NCBI GenBank assembly: GCA_903927615.1
Contig: CAIYNU010000002.1
Span: forward strand, 1 to 35,345
Origin: an uncultured Rhodospirillales bacterium
GTDB lineage: Bacteria; Pseudomonadota; Alphaproteobacteria; Azospirillales; Azospirillaceae
Direction of reading: 5' to 3'
Length of the DNA: 35,345 bases
In this document: positions 26,524 to 35,345 of the stretch, piece by piece
How the letters are laid out: every line of letters starts with the position of its first letter
How positions within the stretch are numbered: position 1 is the stretch's first letter
Position numbers and translations under genes: made by a program
Notes under the pieces: generated by a model
What the model was told of the DNA's origin: nothing
Seen by the model: the letters and a program-made list of their open reading frames with translations, nothing else
Database searches by the model: none

Positions 26524-27513
26524 TTATAAATGTTTTGCGAAATCGGGAATTGTACGGAAAGCGAAGCAATATCCATAGTTACTAGACGCGACTTTATATC
26601 CGAATTTTCCCCATAGAGCAACTAAAGCGTCCATTGTATAAATTGAGATATGCCCATTACGCGGAGAAATATACCACCACGACAAGCCATCTTTAGGAAA
26701 TGGTCCAGCCCATATCGCTGTGGAAAACACAATAAGGCCATCATCTTTGACCAATCCGCAGATCTGTTCCACCCTGGCAACAGGGTCAGGCAGATGCTCC
26801 AGCGTCTCAAAACAAGTGACAATATCGTAACGGCGATCCGGAATTGTCTTGTAGTCGTCAACCAACGGGTCATAAGTGTTGACTATAGAAAACCCATTAA
26901 CCGTCAATGCCTTCTCGAATACGCCGTTGCCACCACCATAATCCAAGATCGATATAGTAGCTCTTGAAGACTTAAACATCTCTAAGAATTTTATTGCGTT
27001 AGTTAGCGGTCGTTTATTATCATATTCAGGATCAACTATATGATATTGATCATTGTATATATAATCACAAAATTCTTTCAAAGTCCACTGATCGAATGCA
27101 ACACTAAAAATAAAGCCGCAGCTTTCACATCTGTGAAAATAAATATTTATTCCAGTTCTTGGAAAAACAACACCATTACGTTCTTCGCACGATTTATTAA
27201 AATCAATATAGCCAAGGACTGGCGCATAATTATTGCAAATCTTGCAGGTCGCGGCTTCATTATTGAATAATATATTATTCGGAATAACGCCGTTTGCAGT
27301 GATCGGTGGCGCCATTAATGTTCTTAATTTATCGGAAATATCATTGATTGCTCGATTATTGTCTGTTGAAGCAGCGATGCCATGTAATAGATTCAGAACG
27401 GCACTATTATTTATTCGTGAAATGACAAAGTGTGATAATATCATTTTAATAAGTAGCGAAGCAAAAAAATTGTACCGCAGCTTCGTGGGAGCGTCCGGTG
27501 TCTTATCGATCAT
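26524..27513 (-). CDS. SAM-dependent methyltransferase with N-terminal zinc-ribbon-like cysteines; AT-rich, probably acquired
   Basis: A 329-residue protein. CKIC (90-93) and CESC (129-132) form a four-Cys site like that of C-methyltransferases of sugar pathways and methyltransferase domain 12 proteins. SILDYGGGNGVFEKAL (188-203) is SAM motif I; YDIVTCFETLEHLPDP is the post-II region with ETLEHL typical of the family. The C-terminus has WWYISPRNGHISIYTM, which matches the P-x-x-GHxxxY motif of these enzymes. Base composition is strikingly lower in GC than both neighbours, with many A/T-ending codons, so recent transfer is likely. A GAGGG site precedes the ATG. Likely substrate: a nucleotide sugar or glycan. 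Confidence 0.88.
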   Translation of the reverse strand: MIDKTPDAPTKLRYNFFASLLIKMILSHFVISRINNSAVLNLLHGIAASTDNNRAINDISDKLRTLMAPPITANGVIPNNILFNNEAATCKICNNYAPVLGYIDFNKSCEERNGVVFPRTGINIYFHRCESCGFIFSVAFDQWTLKEFCDYIYNDQYHIVDPEYDNKRPLTNAIKFLEMFKSSRATISILDYGGGNGVFEKALTVNGFSIVNTYDPLVDDYKTIPDRRYDIVTCFETLEHLPDPVARVEQICGLVKDDGLIVFSTAIWAGPFPKDGLSWWYISPRNGHISIYTMDALVALWGKFGYKVASSNYGYCFAFRTIPDFAKHL

Positions 27514-27959: not shown

Positions 27960-30062
27960 ATGACGGTGGTCCCGATTGCCAAAACCTTTGCCGCCGCCTT
28001 GGCCGCTCACCGGGCCGGGCGGCTCGAGGACGCCGAGGCCCTGTATCGCCGGATTCTGGCGGTCGAGCCCAATCATGGGGACAGCCTGCACTATCTCGGC
28101 CTGATCGCCCATCAGGTGGGCCGCCACGACCTGGCCCTGGAGCTGATCGGCCGGGCCATCGCCCTCAACGGCCGGGTTCCCGAGTTCCACAACAATATCG
28201 GCGAGGCCCATCGGGCCCTGGGGCAGTTGGGTGCGGCCATCGAGCACTACCACCGCGCCATCGCGCTCCGCGCCGGCTATGTCGAGGCCCATTACAACCT
28301 GGCCAATACCCTCTGTGACCAGGGCCGGATGGACGAAGCGGTCGCGCGCTACCGGCGGGCGCTGACGCTGCGGCCGGATTATGCCGAGGCCCACAACAAT
28401 CTGGGCACCGTCCTGCACGCCCAGGGGCACCTGGACGAAGCCATCAAGCACTACCGGCGGGTGGTGGCGTTGCGGCCGGAGATTCCCGAGGTGCATTACA
28501 ATCTCGGCACCGTGCTTCAGGATCAGGGGAATCTGGCCACGGCCATGACCCACTACGAAAAGGCGCTGGGGTTGCGGCCGGGTTATGTCGAAGCCCACTA
28601 CAATCTGGGCATCGTGCTGCGGGATCAGGGCCGGTTGCCCGAGGCGGCGGCCCACTACCGGCAAGCCCTGGCCTTGCGGCCGGACTATGCCGAGGCTCAC
28701 AACAATCTCGGCAATCTGCTCAAGGATCAGGGACGCCTGGAAGACGCGGTGTCCTGCTTCACGCGGGCACTGGAGTTGCGGCCGGACTATGCCGAAGCCC
28801 ACAGCAATCTGTTGTTCACCCAGCTTTACCGGCCCGGCGTGACCCTGGCCGGGGTGCTGGCGGCCGCCCAAGGCTGGAACGGCGCCCAGACCCGGGGCCT
28901 TCGGGCCGCCTGGCCCTGCCATGATCCGAAGACCCGGGACGGTGGGCCGCTCCGGCTGGGCTTCGTCTCCGGGGACTTCCGCAACCATGTGATCGGCCAC
29001 CACGTCATTCCGACCCTGGAACGGCTGGCCGCCGCCGGGCATCGGCTGACCTGCTACAGCAACAACGCCACCGAAGACGCCCTGACCGCGCGGTTCAAGG
29101 CGGCGGCGGCGACCTGGCGCCCGGTGTCTCGGCTGACCGACCAGGCCCTGGCCGAAACCATCCGGAATGACGGCATCGACATCCTGTTCGATCTCAGCGG
29201 CCACACCGCCTACAACCGGCTGTTGGTCTTTGCCCGCAAGCCTGCGCCGGTTCAGGTGTGCTGGGTCGGCTACCCGGCGACCACCGGCCTCGAGGCCATG
29301 GATTATTTTCTCAACGACCGCCATCAGATTCCCGACGGTGCGGAGGCCTACTATCAGGAGAAGGTGGTCCGGCTGCCGAACAGCTATATGTGCTATGAGC
29401 CGGTGGCCGATGCCCCGCCGGTGGCGGCTCAGCCCTATGACGCCAACGGCCATGTCACCTTCGGCTCGTTCAACGAGGTCAAGAAGATCACGCCCCAGGC
29501 GATCGCGGTCTGGAGCGAGATTCTGCGCCGCCTGCCGACCGCCCGCCTGCTGCTGAAGGCCACCCGGTTCGGCGATCCCGACGTTCAGGACCGCTATCGG
29601 CACCTGTTCGGCGGCCACGGCATCGCGTCCGAGCGCCTGGACTTCGTGGGTGCCACGTCGCCGGCCGAACACATGGCTTTCATGTCCCGCGCCGATCTGG
29701 CCCTCGACACCTTTCCCTTTACGGGCGGCGCCACCACGGTCGATGCGTTGTGGATGGGGGTTCCAGTGATTACCTGCCCGGGCGAGACCATCAGCAGCCG
29801 CCACTCTCTGGGGCATCTGACCCATGCCGGACTGACCGAACTGATCGCCCCGAATCTGGATCGCTACGTCGCCCTGGCCGTGGAGTTGGCCCAGGAGCCG
29901 GTGCGTCTGGCCGGACTGCGCGCCGGGCTGCGCCCGCGGCTGGCGGCCTCGCCGCTGTGTGCCGGCGAATCCTTCGTTCGCCACGTCGAGGCGGCGGTGA
30001 CGGCCATGGGGGAGCGGTATCTGTCGGGGCAACCGCCCGAGGCGTTTTCCGTGGCCGGCTAG
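27960..30062 (+). CDS. TPR-containing GT41 glycosyltransferase (O-GlcNAc-transferase/SPINDLY family, FlmG-like)
   Basis: A 700-residue protein. Residues about 9-290 are eight TPR units of 34 residues (for example VEAHYNLANTLCDQGRMDEA, AEAHNNLGTVLHAQGHLDEA), making a superhelix that would hold a protein substrate. The catalytic half starts near 320: GFVSGDFRNHVIGHHV with the conserved His region, DILFDLSGHTAYNR, WVGYPATTGL, TFGSFNEVKKITP with the UDP-contacting Lys, and DTFPFTGGATTVDALWMGVP near 582, the hallmark of GT41. The family transfers a sugar from a nucleotide sugar to Ser/Thr. In Caulobacter a TPR-GT41 protein (FlmG) glycosylates flagellin; a flagellin gene lies 3 kb downstream here, so the same role is a reasonable inference. 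The ribosome site is weak. Confidence 0.9.
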   Translation: MTVVPIAKTFAAALAAHRAGRLEDAEALYRRILAVEPNHGDSLHYLGLIAHQVGRHDLALELIGRAIALNGRVPEFHNNIGEAHRALGQLGAAIEHYHRAIALRAGYVEAHYNLANTLCDQGRMDEAVARYRRALTLRPDYAEAHNNLGTVLHAQGHLDEAIKHYRRVVALRPEIPEVHYNLGTVLQDQGNLATAMTHYEKALGLRPGYVEAHYNLGIVLRDQGRLPEAAAHYRQALALRPDYAEAHNNLGNLLKDQGRLEDAVSCFTRALELRPDYAEAHSNLLFTQLYRPGVTLAGVLAAAQGWNGAQTRGLRAAWPCHDPKTRDGGPLRLGFVSGDFRNHVIGHHVIPTLERLAAAGHRLTCYSNNATEDALTARFKAAAATWRPVSRLTDQALAETIRNDGIDILFDLSGHTAYNRLLVFARKPAPVQVCWVGYPATTGLEAMDYFLNDRHQIPDGAEAYYQEKVVRLPNSYMCYEPVADAPPVAAQPYDANGHVTFGSFNEVKKITPQAIAVWSEILRRLPTARLLLKATRFGDPDVQDRYRHLFGGHGIASERLDFVGATSPAEHMAFMSRADLALDTFPFTGGATTVDALWMGVPVITCPGETISSRHSLGHLTHAGLTELIAPNLDRYVALAVELAQEPVRLAGLRAGLRPRLAASPLCAGESFVRHVEAAVTAMGERYLSGQPPEAFSVAG

Positions 30063-30074
30063 GCCGCCGCAAGC

Positions 30075-30674
30075 GTGACCGGGACCGGTGTGTTTCCCCT
30101 CCCGTCCGACCGGCCGGCCGCCGCCGAGGACGGGACCCTTTATGCCGTGCTGATGCTGGACCGGTTGCATGAGGCGCGGCCGATGGTCCGCGCCTTCGAT
30201 GCCGGCGCCGCGGGCCGTTACCGCACCGTGCTGGCCGACCGGCTGAAGGGAACCGAATGGCTTGGGGCCGAGGTCTGGCTGCCGGCGCTGGACCAGCTCC
30301 GGTTATCCTGGCGGGATGGCCGGCTGTCCTGCACCGACATCCGTCTGGCCGCCGCCGCCGGCTTGCCCGCCCTGGATCTGGTCATCTTCGACCACGTCCT
30401 CGACTCCATGGGCGAGGATGAGGCCCGGGGTCTGGTCGAGGCCCATTTCGCCCGCTCGGCGCTGACGCTGGTGGTGATGCCTGCGGCGCGAACCGGCGAA
30501 CGATGGCTGCCGGCCCATCGCACGACGCTGGTTCACGGCGAAACCGGGGTCTATTTTCTCTCGCAGGACGTCGAACGGTGCGCGCATCTGGTGCGCCTCC
30601 AACAGGTCATCCCGCCGCTGGTTCAGCGCACCCTTCCCGGCGATCGGCTCCGCTGGTCCGTGGCGCCGGCCTGA
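30075..30674 (+). CDS. Small class I methyltransferase-like protein
   Basis: A 199-residue protein starting with GTG 12 bp after the GT41 stop, so probably translationally linked. VRAFDAGAAGRYRTVLADRL (38-57) resembles SAM motif I in position and pattern (D-x-G-x-x-G-R-Y), GAEVWLPAL resembles motif II, and LDLVIFDHVLDSMGEDEARGL resembles the post-II/III region with the usual HVLEHL-like sequence. The glycine loop is imperfect (GAAG), so SAM binding is not assured. It could modify the sugar or the acceptor handled by the GT41 enzyme. Assignment rests on pattern only. Confidence 0.6.
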   Translation: MTGTGVFPLPSDRPAAAEDGTLYAVLMLDRLHEARPMVRAFDAGAAGRYRTVLADRLKGTEWLGAEVWLPALDQLRLSWRDGRLSCTDIRLAAAAGLPALDLVIFDHVLDSMGEDEARGLVEAHFARSALTLVVMPAARTGERWLPAHRTTLVHGETGVYFLSQDVERCAHLVRLQQVIPPLVQRTLPGDRLRWSVAPA

Positions 30675-30775
30675 CGTGATGGGTGTCCAGAGGCCCCCGG
30701 CCTTTGGGTTATCCTCAACGCTTGAACATATTAGACTCCCCGGACCGTCAACCACAGCCGTAACCCTTGCCCCCC

Positions 30776-31984
30776 ATGTCGTCCGCCGTCGATCCCGACC
30801 ACCATCTGGCCCAAGCCATCGGCCACTTTTACCGGGGCCATCTGGCGGCGGCCGACGCCCATTGCCGCCGCAGCCTGGCCGCCGCGCCCGACCGGGCCGG
30901 GGCGCTCAACCTGTTGGGCGCCATCGCCGCCCTGGCCGGGCTCAGGGCCGCGGCGGCGGACAGTTTCGGCCGGGCGTCGGCGCTGGCGGCGGCCCGGGAC
31001 AACCTGGCCGTGCTGGCATCGCGGCCCGGGACCGGCCCGGCCCGGACGACTCCCGGCTATGTGCTGATCAAGGCCTGGGGCTTCGGCTTCTGGGCCGAGG
31101 TCTGTCATGTGCTGGGCGGGCTGCTGCTGGCCGAACTCACCGGCCGAACCCCGGTGATCCAATGGGGCCGCAAGTGCCGGTTCACCGACGGCCACCGCCC
31201 GGAGGCCTTTGGCCTGTTCTTCGAACCGGTGTCGGACCTGACGGTGGCGGACCTGATGGCTCTGGAACCGGCCCCGTCGTGCTTTCCCGAAGGCTGGAGC
31301 CGGGAAGCCCTGCGGCGTGACCGCTGGTCCAAACGTCCGGGTCTGGGAGCCATCGACTTCCTGGCCCGAACCGAAACGGTGCTGGTGTGCTGCGTGTTCA
31401 TGGGGGTGGCGGATCTGGCGCCGTGGATTCCGCCGGCTCACCCTCTCCATGGCCGAACCATCGCCGCCTGTTTCAAGGCGTTGTTCGACCGGTATCTCCG
31501 GCCCCGTCCCGAGATCATGGCGGCGGTGCGGGACTTCCGGGAACGCCACCTGGCCGGCGCCCCGGTGGCGGCGGTCCATCTCCGCGGCTCGGACAAGGTG
31601 ACGGAAGTGCCGGGACTGGCCGCGGTGAACGACCGGGTCATCGCCCTGGTCGACGCGGTCCCGGCGTCCTGGCGGCTTTTCCTGCTGACCGACGACGCCC
31701 GCCTGGCCCGGGACGTCCGCCGGCGCTATGGCGGGCGGGTGGTCATGACCTACAGCCGGCGCACCGCCGACGGCACCGGCATCCACTATCATGCCGGAGA
31801 AAACGGCGCCGCCCTCGGCCGCGAGGTCATGATCGACACCTGGCTGGCCCTGGGCGCCGACCGCTTCATCGGCAACGGCCGGTCCAACGTTTCCGGAATC
31901 ATCGATGTCCTGCGCACCGCCGGAGGGCAGGACAGCACGCTGGTTCTGGACAACCAACTCACCGAAAATACGTGGTTTTTGTGA
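30776..31984 (+). CDS. TPR-like N-terminus plus GT23-like fucosyltransferase-fold protein
   Basis: A 402-residue protein. Residues about 8-85 look like two TPR units (HLAQAIGHFYRGHLAAADAH, AGALNLLGAIAALAGL). The rest carries fucosyltransferase motifs: VAAVHLRGSDKVTEVPG (about 264-280) corresponds to the HxRRTDKV box of FUT8/NodZ, FLLTDDARLARDV to the FLATDD box, and DRFIGNGRSNVSGII to the last box near the donor site. The second Arg of HxRR is Gly here, as in some other fucosyltransferase families, so donor and activity are not certain. Family enzymes use GDP-fucose. TPR fused to this fold suggests a protein acceptor (inference). The ATG at 30776 is used; a TTG three codons earlier is possible. 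Confidence 0.72.
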   Translation: MSSAVDPDHHLAQAIGHFYRGHLAAADAHCRRSLAAAPDRAGALNLLGAIAALAGLRAAAADSFGRASALAAARDNLAVLASRPGTGPARTTPGYVLIKAWGFGFWAEVCHVLGGLLLAELTGRTPVIQWGRKCRFTDGHRPEAFGLFFEPVSDLTVADLMALEPAPSCFPEGWSREALRRDRWSKRPGLGAIDFLARTETVLVCCVFMGVADLAPWIPPAHPLHGRTIAACFKALFDRYLRPRPEIMAAVRDFRERHLAGAPVAAVHLRGSDKVTEVPGLAAVNDRVIALVDAVPASWRLFLLTDDARLARDVRRRYGGRVVMTYSRRTADGTGIHYHAGENGAALGREVMIDTWLALGADRFIGNGRSNVSGIIDVLRTAGGQDSTLVLDNQLTENTWFL

Positions 31985-32114
31985 CCGGCGGCGCGCTTTT
32001 GGCGACCAGGCGTCACAGTTCCGATACCAACGGCCGCCATCCCTTGCTACACTTGGGCCACGCCGGCGAGAACCGCCACCGGCAAGGCCTGTCCTCTCTG
32101 TTCGGATCGCCCCC

Positions 32115-32705
32115 ATGACCCCCTTCCGCAGTCTGGTCTTCGGCCTCCTCCTCGGCCTGGTCGGCGCCGCCGCGCCCGCGGCCCGCGCCGACACCGCCAG
32201 TGCGCAACCGATCGCGGCCGCCCCGTCGGCCGCCGAGGCGGCCTGGAACGGCCCCGGCGATCTTTACCGCATCGTCGCCACCTCGGCCGGCGTGCTGGTC
32301 GGAGCCGGGTTGATGAGCGTGTTCATCGACGGCTGGGTGCTCGACGCCTTCACCTCGAGCAGCGGCCTGACGGCCAGGGAAGCCGCCACGGTGGTGCAGG
32401 ACCTGGAGAGCCAGGGCGGAGTCGAAGCGGCGGCGATCCTGCTGGCCGGCCTCGGGGGCGGGTTGGTGGCCGACCATGTCTATGTCAACGCGGGCCAGGT
32501 TCTGCCCGGAGCCCTCGAGTCCGCCAATGCCGCCGTCATGCCGACGATCACGGCCATCGGCACGGCCTGGTCACGGACCAGAACTTGGATCGGCGGCCAT
32601 GTGGATGACGCCAGCGACTGGGTTCAAGCGCGCTCCCGGGAAGCCTGGGACCGCTGGCAGGTGTGGGTAAACCCGGCCACCGCACCGGCCAAGGGCAGTC
32701 GCTAG
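32115..32705 (+). CDS. Exported or membrane protein of unknown function
   Basis: A 196-residue protein with a clear N-terminal signal (MTPFRSLVFGLLLGLVGAAA, then PAARA-DTAS). Two further hydrophobic stretches, VATSAGVLVGAGLMSVFIDG and AAAILLAGLGGGLVADHVYV, may be membrane-spanning, with a helical Trp/Arg-rich C-terminus (AWSRTRTWIGG, EAWDRWQVWVNP). I recognise no family. It sits between the fucosyltransferase-like gene and flagellin on the same strand. A strong hairpin begins within its stop codon. Confidence 0.7.
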   Translation: MTPFRSLVFGLLLGLVGAAAPAARADTASAQPIAAAPSAAEAAWNGPGDLYRIVATSAGVLVGAGLMSVFIDGWVLDAFTSSSGLTAREAATVVQDLESQGGVEAAAILLAGLGGGLVADHVYVNAGQVLPGALESANAAVMPTITAIGTAWSRTRTWIGGHVDDASDWVQARSREAWDRWQVWVNPATAPAKGSR

Positions 32706-32749
32706 TGTTCCGACTCCGACGGATGATCTCCCCCGTCGGGCCGGAACAC
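32705..32749. terminator. Long hairpin at the end of the 32115 gene
   Basis: GTGTTCCG (32705-32712) plus CCGACGG (32716-32722) pair with CCGTCGG (32733-32739) plus CGGAACAC (32742-32749): 15 base pairs with a 3/2 internal loop and a 10-nt apical loop. It starts at the last base of the TAG stop. No T-run follows, so it may be an mRNA-stabilising or attenuating structure rather than an intrinsic terminator. Confidence 0.55.
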
Positions 32750-32767
32750 GAGCTTGTTATGGGTGTT

Positions 32768-32819
32768 GTGTTGTGACCGGGACACGGTCATTGGGTATGA
32801 AGCGTCTCGGTCACAACAC
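32768..32819. promoter_or_regulatory. 16-bp inverted repeat ahead of the small ORF
   Basis: GTGTTGTGACCGGGAC (32768-32783) and GTCTCGGTCACAACAC (32804-32819) are complementary with one mismatch, separated by 20 bp. It ends 14 bp upstream of the ATG at 32834, overlapping the approach to the ribosome site. It could be an operator dyad or an RNA hairpin controlling translation. Confidence 0.6.
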
Positions 32820-32833
32820 GAGGAGCCCAAACC

Positions 32834-33061
32834 ATGGTTGACACAAGGCCAACCGATCGAACACGGAATGAGGGCATCCGGCCCGAGAGTTCGGGCGACC
32901 GCATCCATGCGATTCCCCCCGCGGGCAGCAGTACCGCGGCGCATCCGCGCTCCCGTCAGCGCATTCCCAGCATGCGTCAGTTGGCGGCCCTGGTGGTCAA
33001 CGGCATGTTGATGCTGCCGCGGAATTACCGTCGCGGAATGTTTCTTGACATCCTGATCTGA
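32834..33061 (+). CDS. Small hypothetical protein
   Basis: A 75-residue ORF with a good ribosome site (GAGGAGCCCAAACC) before its ATG. The N-terminal 45 residues are polar and Arg/Ser/Pro-rich, likely disordered; the C-terminal end MRQLAALVVNGMLMLPRNYRRGMFLDILI is hydrophobic and basic and could lie along a membrane. No family is recognised. It lies 177 bp before the flagellin start, on the same strand, behind two hairpins. It is supported by its ribosome site and GC-rich codon use, but may not be a gene. Confidence 0.5.
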   Translation: MVDTRPTDRTRNEGIRPESSGDRIHAIPPAGSSTAAHPRSRQRIPSMRQLAALVVNGMLMLPRNYRRGMFLDILI

Positions 33062-33237
33062 GCGACCGGGCCAGGCTCCCCCTGACGGGCCGGCCTCAAG
33101 GCACGCCGGACTCCAGCCGGGCCCGGACTCAAATCGGAAGTCTGTTTCCCCGGCACATTTTTCTTGTGATGGCAACCCACTTCGAATAAGCTGGTTGAGG
33201 TGGAAGAAAGCCACCTTTTTCCAGAATGGAGCCAGAA

Positions 33238-34131
33238 ATGTCCGACATCACCCTTACTGCATCCGCTCGTACCGCCCTGACCTCGTTGCAGAGCACGGCC
33301 AGCCTGATGAGCCGGACCCAAGGCCGGTTGACCAGTGGCATGAAGGTGGCGAGCGCCATTGATGACGCCGTGTCGTTCTTTAAGGCCCAGGGCCTGACCG
33401 ACCGCGCCTCCGACTTCACCAGCCGTAAGTCCCAGATTGATCAGGGCATTTCGTCGGTGACGGCCGCGGTTAACGGCACGACCATTGCCAGCAGCGTCCT
33501 GAAGCAAATGCAAGGCTTGGTCAGTAGCGTTCGTACCGCTGACTCGAGCACGCGCGCGACCCTGACCAGTCAGTTCAACAACCTGGCCACTCAGCTCAAC
33601 AGTGCTGAAGGCGACTCCAGTTACCAGGGTTTGAATCTGGTCAACAACAGCACCGCCTCGCTGACCGTGTATTTCAACCAGGGCACCGGCGCGGCTCTGA
33701 CCATCAACGCCCAGAACCTCAACACCTCGGTGTTGCTGTCTCTGGCCAGTGCGGCGTCCAGCGGCGCCCTCAGCATCATGCTGTCGGGTGGCGGCGTTGC
33801 CACCGCAGGCGGCGGCTTCTCGGTCCTCTCGGATTCGACCTCTGCGGCGGCCGTCCTCAACAACCTGCAAAGCCAGCTCAGTTCGGCGCAAAGCACGATC
33901 CGGGCCTCGGCGGCCCGTCTCGGCGGCAACGTCACCTTCCTGCAAACCCGGTCTGACTTCACGACCAATTACACCAACACCATGACCACGGGTGCCGGCA
34001 AGATGACGCTGGCCGACCTCAACAGCGAAGGTGCCAATCTGGTGGCATTGCAGACCCGCCAGCAGATCGGTATCCAGTCCTTGAGCATCGCCGGTCAGCA
34101 GCAACAGGCCATCCTCAGCCTGCTCCGGTAA
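33238..34131 (+). CDS. Flagellin
   Basis: A 297-residue flagellar filament protein. The N-terminal D0/D1 region (TASARTALTSLQSTASLMSR, QGRLTSGMKVASAIDDAVSF) and the C-terminal region (TLADLNSEGANLVALQTRQQ, then IGIQSLSIAGQQQQAILSLL) are the conserved coiled-coil ends; LADLNSEGA corresponds to the DxNEE stretch. The middle (about 125-215) is short and Ser/Thr/Gly/Asn-rich, giving many possible O-glycosylation sites. The second ATG is preferred because GGAG lies 8 bp upstream; the first ATG (33226) overlaps that ribosome site. No FlaF/FlbT genes are adjacent. A strong terminator follows. The name fla/fliC cannot be chosen from sequence alone. Confidence 0.95.
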   Translation: MSDITLTASARTALTSLQSTASLMSRTQGRLTSGMKVASAIDDAVSFFKAQGLTDRASDFTSRKSQIDQGISSVTAAVNGTTIASSVLKQMQGLVSSVRTADSSTRATLTSQFNNLATQLNSAEGDSSYQGLNLVNNSTASLTVYFNQGTGAALTINAQNLNTSVLLSLASAASSGALSIMLSGGGVATAGGGFSVLSDSTSAAAVLNNLQSQLSSAQSTIRASAARLGGNVTFLQTRSDFTTNYTNTMTTGAGKMTLADLNSEGANLVALQTRQQIGIQSLSIAGQQQQAILSLLR

Positions 34132-34160: not shown

Positions 34161-34189
34161 GGGCGGAGCTTTTGCTCCGCCCTTTTTTT
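34161..34189 (+). terminator. Intrinsic terminator of the flagellin gene
   Basis: GGGCGGAGC (34161-34169), loop TTTT, GCTCCGCCC (34174-34182), then seven T residues. A textbook rho-independent terminator, 30 bp after the flagellin stop. Confidence 0.96.
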
Positions 34190-34890: not shown

Positions 34891-35345
34891 TCAATCTGTG
34901 CGCTCGCCGGGATAAACGATCGCCCGTTCCACCGCCATGCATAAATAGTGGTAAAGGCAGATGTGCAACTGCTGAATCAGCGGTGTGCTGCGTGACGGCA
35001 CCGCCAGCAGGTGATCCGACACCGCGGCCAGCCGCCCCCCGCCTTCGCCGGTCAGCGCCACGGTGGTGACGCCCATCTCCCGGGCCTTGAGGAAGGCGGC
35101 GACCACGTTGGCCGAGTTGCCGGACGTGCTGATGCCCAGCACAACCGCGCCCGGTTCGCCATAGGCTTCGACCTGACGGGCGAACACGGTTTCGTAGCTG
35201 TAATCGTTGCTCCAGGCGGTGAGCACCGAAGGATTGTCGGCAAGGCAGATAACTTTCAGCGCCCGGCGTTCGATCAGAAAGCGCCCGACCAACTCGCCGG
35301 TAATGTGCATGGCGTCGGCCGCCGAGCCGCCATTGCCGCACACCA
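34891..35345 (-). CDS. gmhA: Sedoheptulose-7-phosphate isomerase (GmhA-like SIS-domain protein), 5' end beyond window
   Basis: About 151 C-terminal residues of an expected 190-200. CGNGGSAADAMHITGELVGRF is the phosphosugar-binding loop and helix of GmhA; VLGISTSGNSANVV is the second SIS phosphate loop; GEGGGRLAAVSDHLLAVPS and IQQLHICLYHYLCMAVERAI complete the fold, with the His in HICLYHYLC at the active site. It converts sedoheptulose 7-phosphate to D-glycero-D-manno-heptose 7-phosphate, the first step to ADP-heptose for LPS core or GDP-heptose for surface glycans. The start codon is right of the window; further heptose genes are likely there. DiaA-type SIS proteins are a less likely alternative. 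Confidence 0.9.
   Translation of the reverse strand, partial: VCGNGGSAADAMHITGELVGRFLIERRALKVICLADNPSVLTAWSNDYSYETVFARQVEAYGEPGAVVLGISTSGNSANVVAAFLKAREMGVTTVALTGEGGGRLAAVSDHLLAVPSRSTPLIQQLHICLYHYLCMAVERAIVYPGERTD

Follow-up and report, generated by a model that had tools for sequence, protein, structure and literature searches.

The window analysed here is an entire contig of 35345 bases (G000:C2) from the 4.57 Mb draft genome of an uncultured Rhodospirillales bacterium, and the subject is a run of plus-strand genes at 27960-34131 that opens with a glycosyltransferase of family GT41 bearing tetratricopeptide repeats (TPRs) and closes with a flagellin. Genomes, loci and contigs are denoted by G-, L- and C-numbers, respectively; G000 is the genome of the window itself, and G001-G004 are four relatives from the same genus, with G004 being the sister genome. 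An earlier note on this DNA had described a TPR-GT41 enzyme, a GTG-started reading frame 12 bp behind it, a TPR-containing, GT23-like protein on the same strand, and two unknown proteins followed by a flagellin, all of which are present. The first is a predicted protein glycosyltransferase of 700 aa (27960-30062), followed by ORF2, of 199 aa (30075-30674), and by the GT23-like protein, hereafter GT23L (30767-31984). Proteins of 196 aa (32115-32705) and 75 aa (32834-33061) then lead to the flagellin of 301 aa (33226-34131), and both of these also precede the flagellin of G004. The presence of two TPR-linked transferases in a single run, which had been called unusual, proves to be both real and uncommon.

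The two transferases and their neighbours

The first enzyme belongs to GT41, with a Glyco_transf_41 domain (Pfam, 1.6e-51; 175.6 bits against a cut-off of 25) and, in front of it, TPR families that all lie before residue 290. The closest solved structures are 5djs (1.4e-78) and SPINDLY (SPY; 7y4i, 4.3e-78), with XcOGT behind at 5.7e-51. Using residue roles taken from the accessible portions of two SPY studies (PMC9715652, PMC10027727), the alignment retains equivalents of D491, H495, N661, K665, K689 and H728; with this predicted catalytic frame intact, the enzyme should be catalytically able. Eight contact positions are altered (S496, V497, I592, N662, Y744, T747, T748 and E752). Residues S496, V497, Y744, T747, T748 and E752 are replaced by V, I, F, G, A and D, and, because these contacts differ, the donor of the window enzyme is not readable from SPY. 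Similarly, at the five positions by which a SPINDLY-type O-fucosyltransferase is recognised (S496, Y744, T747, T748 and E752), V, F, G, A and D are found instead. In a tree built from 51 domains of GT41, of which 44 were drawn from the 64 matches in the genus and seven from elsewhere, the window enzyme and its G004 orthologue (83 % identity over 700 aa) form one of four lineages within a genus-specific clade (support 0.998); the top-scoring matches in G001, G002 and G003 are all members of one other lineage of that clade.

GT23L shows similarity to NodZ by phmmer (2.1e-6), and a profile of its family strengthens this to 1.2e-17, with FUT8 and POFUT1 at 2.5e-9 and 4.5e-5, respectively. Pfam cut-offs for fucosyltransferases are not reached by the protein itself (O-FucT, 17.8 bits versus 31.5); an Aquabacterium homologue does reach that for NodZ (33.4 bits versus 28.3). 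The AlphaFold model (pLDDT 91.7) places TPRs at residues 8-87, followed at approximately 94-404 by a domain of the NodZ/FUT8 type, which superimposes on NodZ with a Z score of 21.7 (rmsd 3.1 over 251 residues), and on FUT8, Arabidopsis FUT1, POFUT2 and POFUT1 with scores of 20.9, 19.2, 17.1 and 16.8, respectively. Alignment of the sequences reveals the motifs HLRGSDK, an instance of HxRxxDK, and GNGRSNVS, such that fold and motif together place the protein with GT23/NodZ; identity over aligned residues is 23-24 % to NodZ and 16-17 % to FUT8. An alternative ATG is found 9 bp into the reading frame. GT23L would most likely use GDP-fucose or a related GDP-sugar. The context in Herbinix, where three GT23L genes come after genes of GDP-fucose synthesis, favours this, and a gmd gene scoring above its cut-off is present in G000 (609 bits), G003, G004 and G009, and absent at that level from G001 and G002. 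The family is rare: some match occurs in 44 of 99 relatives, although similarity extends beyond the TPR part only in G000, G004 and G009, and of the four genus relatives only G004 has a full-length copy. Within the class, 13 of 385 genomes match a profile of the transferase domain at an E-value of 1e-10, and a scan of named genomes returned 21 GT23L loci from several phyla; a plasmid collection searched with GT23L gave no match.

The reading frame between these enzymes had been labelled a small methyltransferase, a label that does not hold. ORF2 matches no Pfam or NCBIfam family, and is recognisable as a degenerate relative of class-I methyltransferases through its model and through alignment to paralogues. 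The paralogues (in G000:C85, G004:C223, G003:C226 and G014) keep motif I as DVGxGxG along with an NPxxxH stretch; ORF2 reads DAGA-AGR at motif I, thereby lacking the GxGxG of S-adenosylmethionine-dependent enzymes, has lost the NPxxxH stretch, and is missing approximately 22 further residues. Even amongst the paralogues recognition varies, with that of G003 matching Methyltransf_11 (1.4e-6) and that of G000 no Pfam family. A structural model (pLDDT 72.4) returns methyltransferases as its top Foldseek matches (E 5.8e-5, TM 0.45). A methyltransferase role was rejected on the loss of the cofactor motif, methylation by ORF2 is unlikely, and the protein is taken as a putative non-catalytic methyltransferase-fold relative kept under selection. 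Comparison with the G004 orthologues gives dN/dS ratios of 0.11 for GT41 (dS ~1), 0.19 for ORF2 (dS 1.4), 0.11 for GT23L and 0.07 for flagellin, values to be read with dS (0.6-1.4) near saturation for most of the genes.

The flagellin carries both terminal domains (Flagellin_N, 6.9e-10; Flagellin_C, 1.6e-5) and is the sole match to Flagellin_N (PF00669) in the assembly. Its centre had been described as rich in Ser, Thr and Asn, which is correct for Asn (9.3 % versus 6.0 % overall), but not for Ser and Thr, which together make up 26.7 % of residues 141-215 against 29.3 % of residues 1-140. Upstream, the 196-aa protein has a signal-peptide-like start (by eye), no Pfam match, and 74 % identity over 153 aa to its G004 counterpart; the 75-aa frame is preceded by GAGGAG and has a 76-aa counterpart in the same place in G004. 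As the flagellin gene begins 164 bp behind the 75-aa frame, it possibly forms its own transcription unit. A terminator-like stem-loop of nine pairs with a T-run follows it (34161-34182, plus strand), which is weak when taken alone, as three such sites occur against 1.9 expected in shuffled sequence. Between 31900 and 34400 no sigma-70-like site was found, sigma-54-like matches occur across the window at chance level (163 versus 185 expected), and no sigma-28-like match lies between GT23L and flagellin. The pattern TAAA-N15-GCCGATAA, allowing up to three mismatches, occurs 27 times in the window against 10.4 expected (largest of 100 shuffles, 19), with no instance between GT23L and flagellin; this excess perhaps reflects codon structure.

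Beyond the run, a methyltransferase gene (26524-27513, minus strand; Methyltransf_23, 1.8e-27) is divergent from the GT41 gene, and has a G+C content below that of its neighbours (by eye). At the other end, a gmhA-type phosphoheptose isomerase (34891-35343, minus strand) is cut by the contig end, and as a fragment scores 175.4 bits against a cut-off of 209.45 (TIGR00441, 7.8e-52). Near the G004 GT41 gene lie a nucleotidyltransferase and an HddA-like kinase, the latter at 159.9 bits, below a cut-off of 600. Together these offer D,D-heptose as a donor for the window GT41, as a lead only. To our knowledge, acceptors or donors have been established for few of the GT41 enzymes of bacteria.

GT41 behind flaF, and GT41-GT23L pairs elsewhere

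One sister lineage of the window GT41 lies directly behind flaF, with gaps of 41 bp in G000 (C1), 4 bp in G004 (C23) and 7 bp in G002 (C63); FlaF at the G000 site is confirmed by Pfam (1.9e-23). A more distant GT41 occupies a flbT-flaF-GT41-Maf run in both G000 (L167:2954-7827, plus strand, on C6) and G004, where the G000 protein has 27 % identity to SPY and none of 14 SPY residues align, which may indicate either alignment failure or a dead enzyme. Across the genus, 5 of 13 flaF loci have a GT41 gene immediately after flaF. In G000 it follows two of three flaF genes, for which chance would be ~6e-5 were its 20 GT41 loci placed at random amongst an assumed 4300 genes.

Similar arrangements are found outside the genus. 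In G060 a minus-strand run (L090:9377-15554), its genes read from plain open reading frames in low-GC DNA, consists of flagellin, flbT, flaF, GT41 and a TPR protein. Of the 17 SPINDLY positions read in this GT41, 14 are conserved and the three that differ all lie in the guanine loop (721-723), making it a predicted flagellin O-fucosyltransferase; the presence of such a SPINDLY-like enzyme in a flagellin run predicts an O-fucosylated flagellin. In a survey of 43 flaF loci, 14 have a GT41 neighbour. Six of these loci were known beforehand (L090, L156, L167, L277, L289 and L309), and the other 37 were hand-picked across genera, eight of them containing GT41 within the stretch fetched (mostly ~6 kb per side). 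Between 1.2 and 2.3 would be expected (P 3.5e-5 to 0.0025) under an assumed GT41 density that derives from the genus rather than from the surveyed genomes. Four of the eight (L282-L285) form one synteny group, upon removal of which 4 of 33 remain (P 0.02-0.15). Two of the eight adjoin flagellin, with GT41 lying between flaF and flagellin in L291 and divergent from flagellin in L295; in a separate set of flagellin loci, GT41 occurs in 3 of 25.

With regard to the pairing of the two transferases, GT41 is also found in 4 of 20 GT23L loci from the named-genome scan (G004 left out), namely those of Aquabacterium, Rubrivivax, an alphaproteobacterial metagenome-assembled genome (MAG) and a Phycisphaerales MAG. 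In the Aquabacterium MAG (L130) the two genes adjoin and their reading frames overlap, although GT23L may instead begin a few bases downstream of the GT41 stop codon. In Rubrivivax sp. A210 (L128:7841-10957, plus strand) TPRs, GT41 and NodZ are fused within one 1038-aa protein, the NodZ part scoring 22.9 bits against a Pfam cut-off of 28.3. Spacing in the remaining two is 2.7 kb (alphaproteobacterial MAG) and 2.3 kb on opposite strands (Phycisphaerales MAG). The GT41 domains of these four loci are spread over three or more regions of the tree, those of Aquabacterium and Rubrivivax grouping together. GT41 matches in these genomes number 18 in the alphaproteobacterial MAG, 10 in Rubrivivax, 2 in Phycisphaerales and 4 in Aquabacterium (mostly two per gene), and a GT41 within a few kb would therefore be expected in roughly <2 % of cases.

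A separate observation concerns a 105-aa protein with a flagellin-tail-like C-terminus, which adjoins GT23L in both G329 (L204:8833-9150, plus strand) and G421 (L210:5439-5756, plus strand). In the latter, a short contig carries flagellin, the 105-aa protein and a fragment of GT23L, truncated where the contig ends. The GT23L proteins of these loci are divergent (29-32 % identical), providing a thin but independent link of this family to flagellin.

A possible protein O-glycosylation pair

Taken together, this locus is tentatively read as a cytoplasmic, TPR-guided protein O-glycosylation pair with flagellin as its leading candidate acceptor, a reading to which we assign a probability of roughly 0.42. 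Flagellin leads amongst the candidates because one sister GT41 lineage lies directly behind flaF, and is thus a plausible acceptor through that lineage rather than through the neighbourhood seen in the window. Gene content, fold, motifs, clade membership, the flaF linkage of a sister lineage and the pairing or fusion of GT41 with GT23L in other genomes are observed directly. For the donor sugars, the acceptor and the order of action, we infer that GT41 would most likely add the first sugar to Ser or Thr of a secreted protein gripped by its TPRs, and that GT23L would most likely transfer L-fucose, or the sugar of a related GDP-sugar, onto or beside this first residue; ORF2 is perhaps an accessory protein. 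The earlier proposal that these genes build and methylate a disaccharide on flagellin is in part strengthened, as the fused and adjacent GT41-GT23L pairs of other genomes favour a possible disaccharide, but its methylation step finds no support. The action of TPR-GT41 enzymes on flagellin likewise gains from the sister lineage behind flaF in three members of the genus and from GT41 in flagellin-flaF loci elsewhere, but not from gene order, the conservation of which was not found in relatives, an outcome that had been named as a refutation.

Several observations weigh against this reading. In G004 the cluster is split: ORF2 and GT23L stay paired (70 and 79 % identity), the GT41 orthologue is encoded on the opposite strand at a distance of ~16 kb, with all three within 20 kb of each other, and six more window genes are on the same contig in rearranged order. 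The G004 flagellin (93 % identical) is encoded on another contig, of 3155 bp, where it comes after genes for a small heat-shock protein and the 196-aa and 75-aa proteins, with its wider surroundings lying outside that contig. Only these last two upstream genes are common to the flagellin surroundings of G004 and the window, and on the side that is visible the flagellin block is separate from GT41, ORF2 and GT23L. In the closest relative, neither GT23L nor the exact neighbourhood shows a tie to flagella, and G001 and G003 possess flagellins and lack GT23L. The flaF-linked lineage is a sister of the window copy and not that copy itself; no flaF lies beside the window GT41, its G004 orthologue or the other two sister lineages in the stretches covered; and G002 has a flaF-linked GT41 with no match to the window flagellin in a genome that is 91 % complete. 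GT41-domain loci number 20 in G000 (8, 11, 8 and 17 in G001-G004, respectively), so that one GT41 alone says little about flagellin. For GT23L, none of 15 loci fetched from the class sample contained GT41, and none of the 21 named-scan loci contained flagellin, as sought with a profile from alphaproteobacterial flagellins in stretches that were sometimes short. Finally, gmd also serves other GDP-sugars.

An alternative is a general protein O-glycosylation module acting on another secreted acceptor, such as a large repeat adhesin, with flagellin being a chance neighbour, an account that we regard as rather unlikely. In its favour, GT41, ORF2 and GT23L share a G004 contig that carries no flagellin, and the four scan loci, out of 20, in which GT23L has a GT41 nearby carry GT41 enzymes from different parts of the tree. 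The Aquabacterium and Rubrivivax pairs sit away from flagellin. The former is beside a protein of at least 2564 aa with LTTxQVAAL-type (LTTxQV-type) repeats (L130:1-7692, minus strand), and a reading frame fragment resembling that protein (by eye) lies ~9 kb from the Rubrivivax fusion. Against it stand the flaF linkage of one sister lineage and the finding that, amongst the reading frames listed in GT41 regions of G000, none exceeds 24 % Ser plus Thr, although repeats were not searched.

A role for GT23L in a surface-polysaccharide pathway (O-antigen or exopolysaccharide), without action on protein and with GT41 working alone, is unlikely. Polysaccharide-type genes (asnB, GT4, GT2, galE and an MraY-like gene; labels by eye) are abundant in the left part of the window, and because they crowd that region GT23L could serve a glycan pathway, a further point against a dedicated protein pair. 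In G004 the ORF2-GT23L pair has a carbonic-anhydrase-like and a small gene before it, and a small and a sulfotransferase-like gene after it (by eye). Amongst Firmicutes, six of seven loci (L136-L141) contain three tandem GT23L genes, the seventh, L142, being a short contig. In Herbinix (L136:5335-11997, plus strand) these lie downstream of gmd, which scores above its cut-off (580.8 bits), of a GDP-fucose synthase (472.2 bits, slightly short of the 500 required) and of a manC-like gene (293.2 bits against a cut-off of 372.95), and in Paenibacillus farraposensis (L137) tandem NodZ-type genes lie behind GDP-fucose genes, including a GDP-fucose synthase of 466.3 bits; neither locus has an evident protein target. 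Pointing the other way, to protein acceptors, are the Rubrivivax fusion and the TPRs of GT23L, which resemble those of SPY with a Z score of 14.8, a value that helical repeats reach easily.

The flagellin of this organism may also be modified by other means. The earlier note had found no Maf-type transferase; this is true of the window, where none of eight proteins scanned contains a Maf_flag10_N or MptE-like domain, but not of the genome. Elsewhere in G000 there are five matches to PF01973 within frames of 645-699 aa, the size of Maf (one, when scanned with Pfam, also matches Maf_flag10_N at 2.2e-40), and three NeuB genes, and G000 therefore has other ways to glycosylate flagellin, again to the detriment of the proposed pair. 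That Maf enzymes with nonulosonic acids, or the flaF-linked GT41s, perform this task, leaving the genes of the window as paralogues that play no part in flagella, is improbable. One Maf gene does lie directly behind a flaF-linked GT41, but a dN/dS of ~0.11 in both window transferases indicates that they are in some use, though not which.

More broadly, and doubtfully, TPR-GT41 and a TPR-linked, NodZ-type fucosyltransferase may constitute an undescribed two-enzyme system that builds a short fucose glycan on secreted proteins in the cytoplasm, encoded as neighbours or fused. Alphaproteobacteria would have turned it to flagellin, and Burkholderiales, independently, to giant repeat proteins rich in Thr. 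No open-licence paper dealing with a GT41 gene downstream of flaF, or with a family that combines TPRs and NodZ, was found amongst titles and abstract openings, nor was one found for NodZ combined with tetratricopeptide and fucosyltransferase. The linkage of GT41 to flaF provides a concrete protein acceptor to test, and the occurrence of GT41 and NodZ in one fused protein suggests a single pathway that includes both fucosylation and transfer by GT41. If true, FlmG-type and GT41-type flagellin glycosylation in Alphaproteobacteria would be told apart.

Comparison with known systems

The earlier note had placed the window enzyme amongst GT41 proteins of the FlmG type, an assignment that is doubtful. 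FlmG of Caulobacter crescentus is a cytoplasmic protein with TPRs and a GT-B domain that binds flagellin through its TPRs and uses pseudaminic acid, and GT41 is never named in the available text describing it (PMC7591256). The window GT41 would resemble it as a putative cytoplasmic, TPR-guided enzyme, the use of pseudaminic acid being the difference on the side of FlmG. In G072 (L226:1448-11448) a TPR protein lies beside flagellin, PseB, PseC, NeuB, FlbT and a FlaF-profile match. Pfam assigns it no GT41 domain, and a BLAST comparison of its C-terminal half with the GT41 domain of the window returned nothing at E 0.01, suggesting a protein that is FlmG-like by context and of another family than GT41. 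Because the C-terminal half of this FlmG-like protein lacks a GT41 match, FlmG itself may belong to another family.

Flagellin glycosylation islands of Enterobacteriaceae contain GT41 proteins with a SPINDLY domain, mostly accompanied by methyltransferase domains, as determined by sequence analysis in the accessible part of that report (PMC4875605), in the text of which neither 'fucos' nor 'TPR' occurs. As GT41 is already found in these islands, its occurrence beside flagellin genes is a known kind of arrangement. The likeness lies in a GT41 within a flagellin locus; the islands differ in being of the fliDC/AZ type and in having the methyltransferase domain within the same protein. Compared with SPINDLY (PMC9715652 and PMC10027727, as far as these were available), the window enzyme is likewise a TPR-GT41 with equivalents of H495 and K665, but with six contact residues changed. 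In favour of the proposed pair, Rha, L-Fuc, Gal and GlcNAc make up part of the glycan on the polar flagellin of Azospirillum brasilense Sp7, according to the accessible part of PMC3958885. GT23L, finally, shares with NodZ and FUT8 (GT23) the fold, the HxRxxDK motif and a likely GDP-fucose donor, and departs from them in its N-terminal TPRs and in an acceptor that would be expected to be protein-linked.

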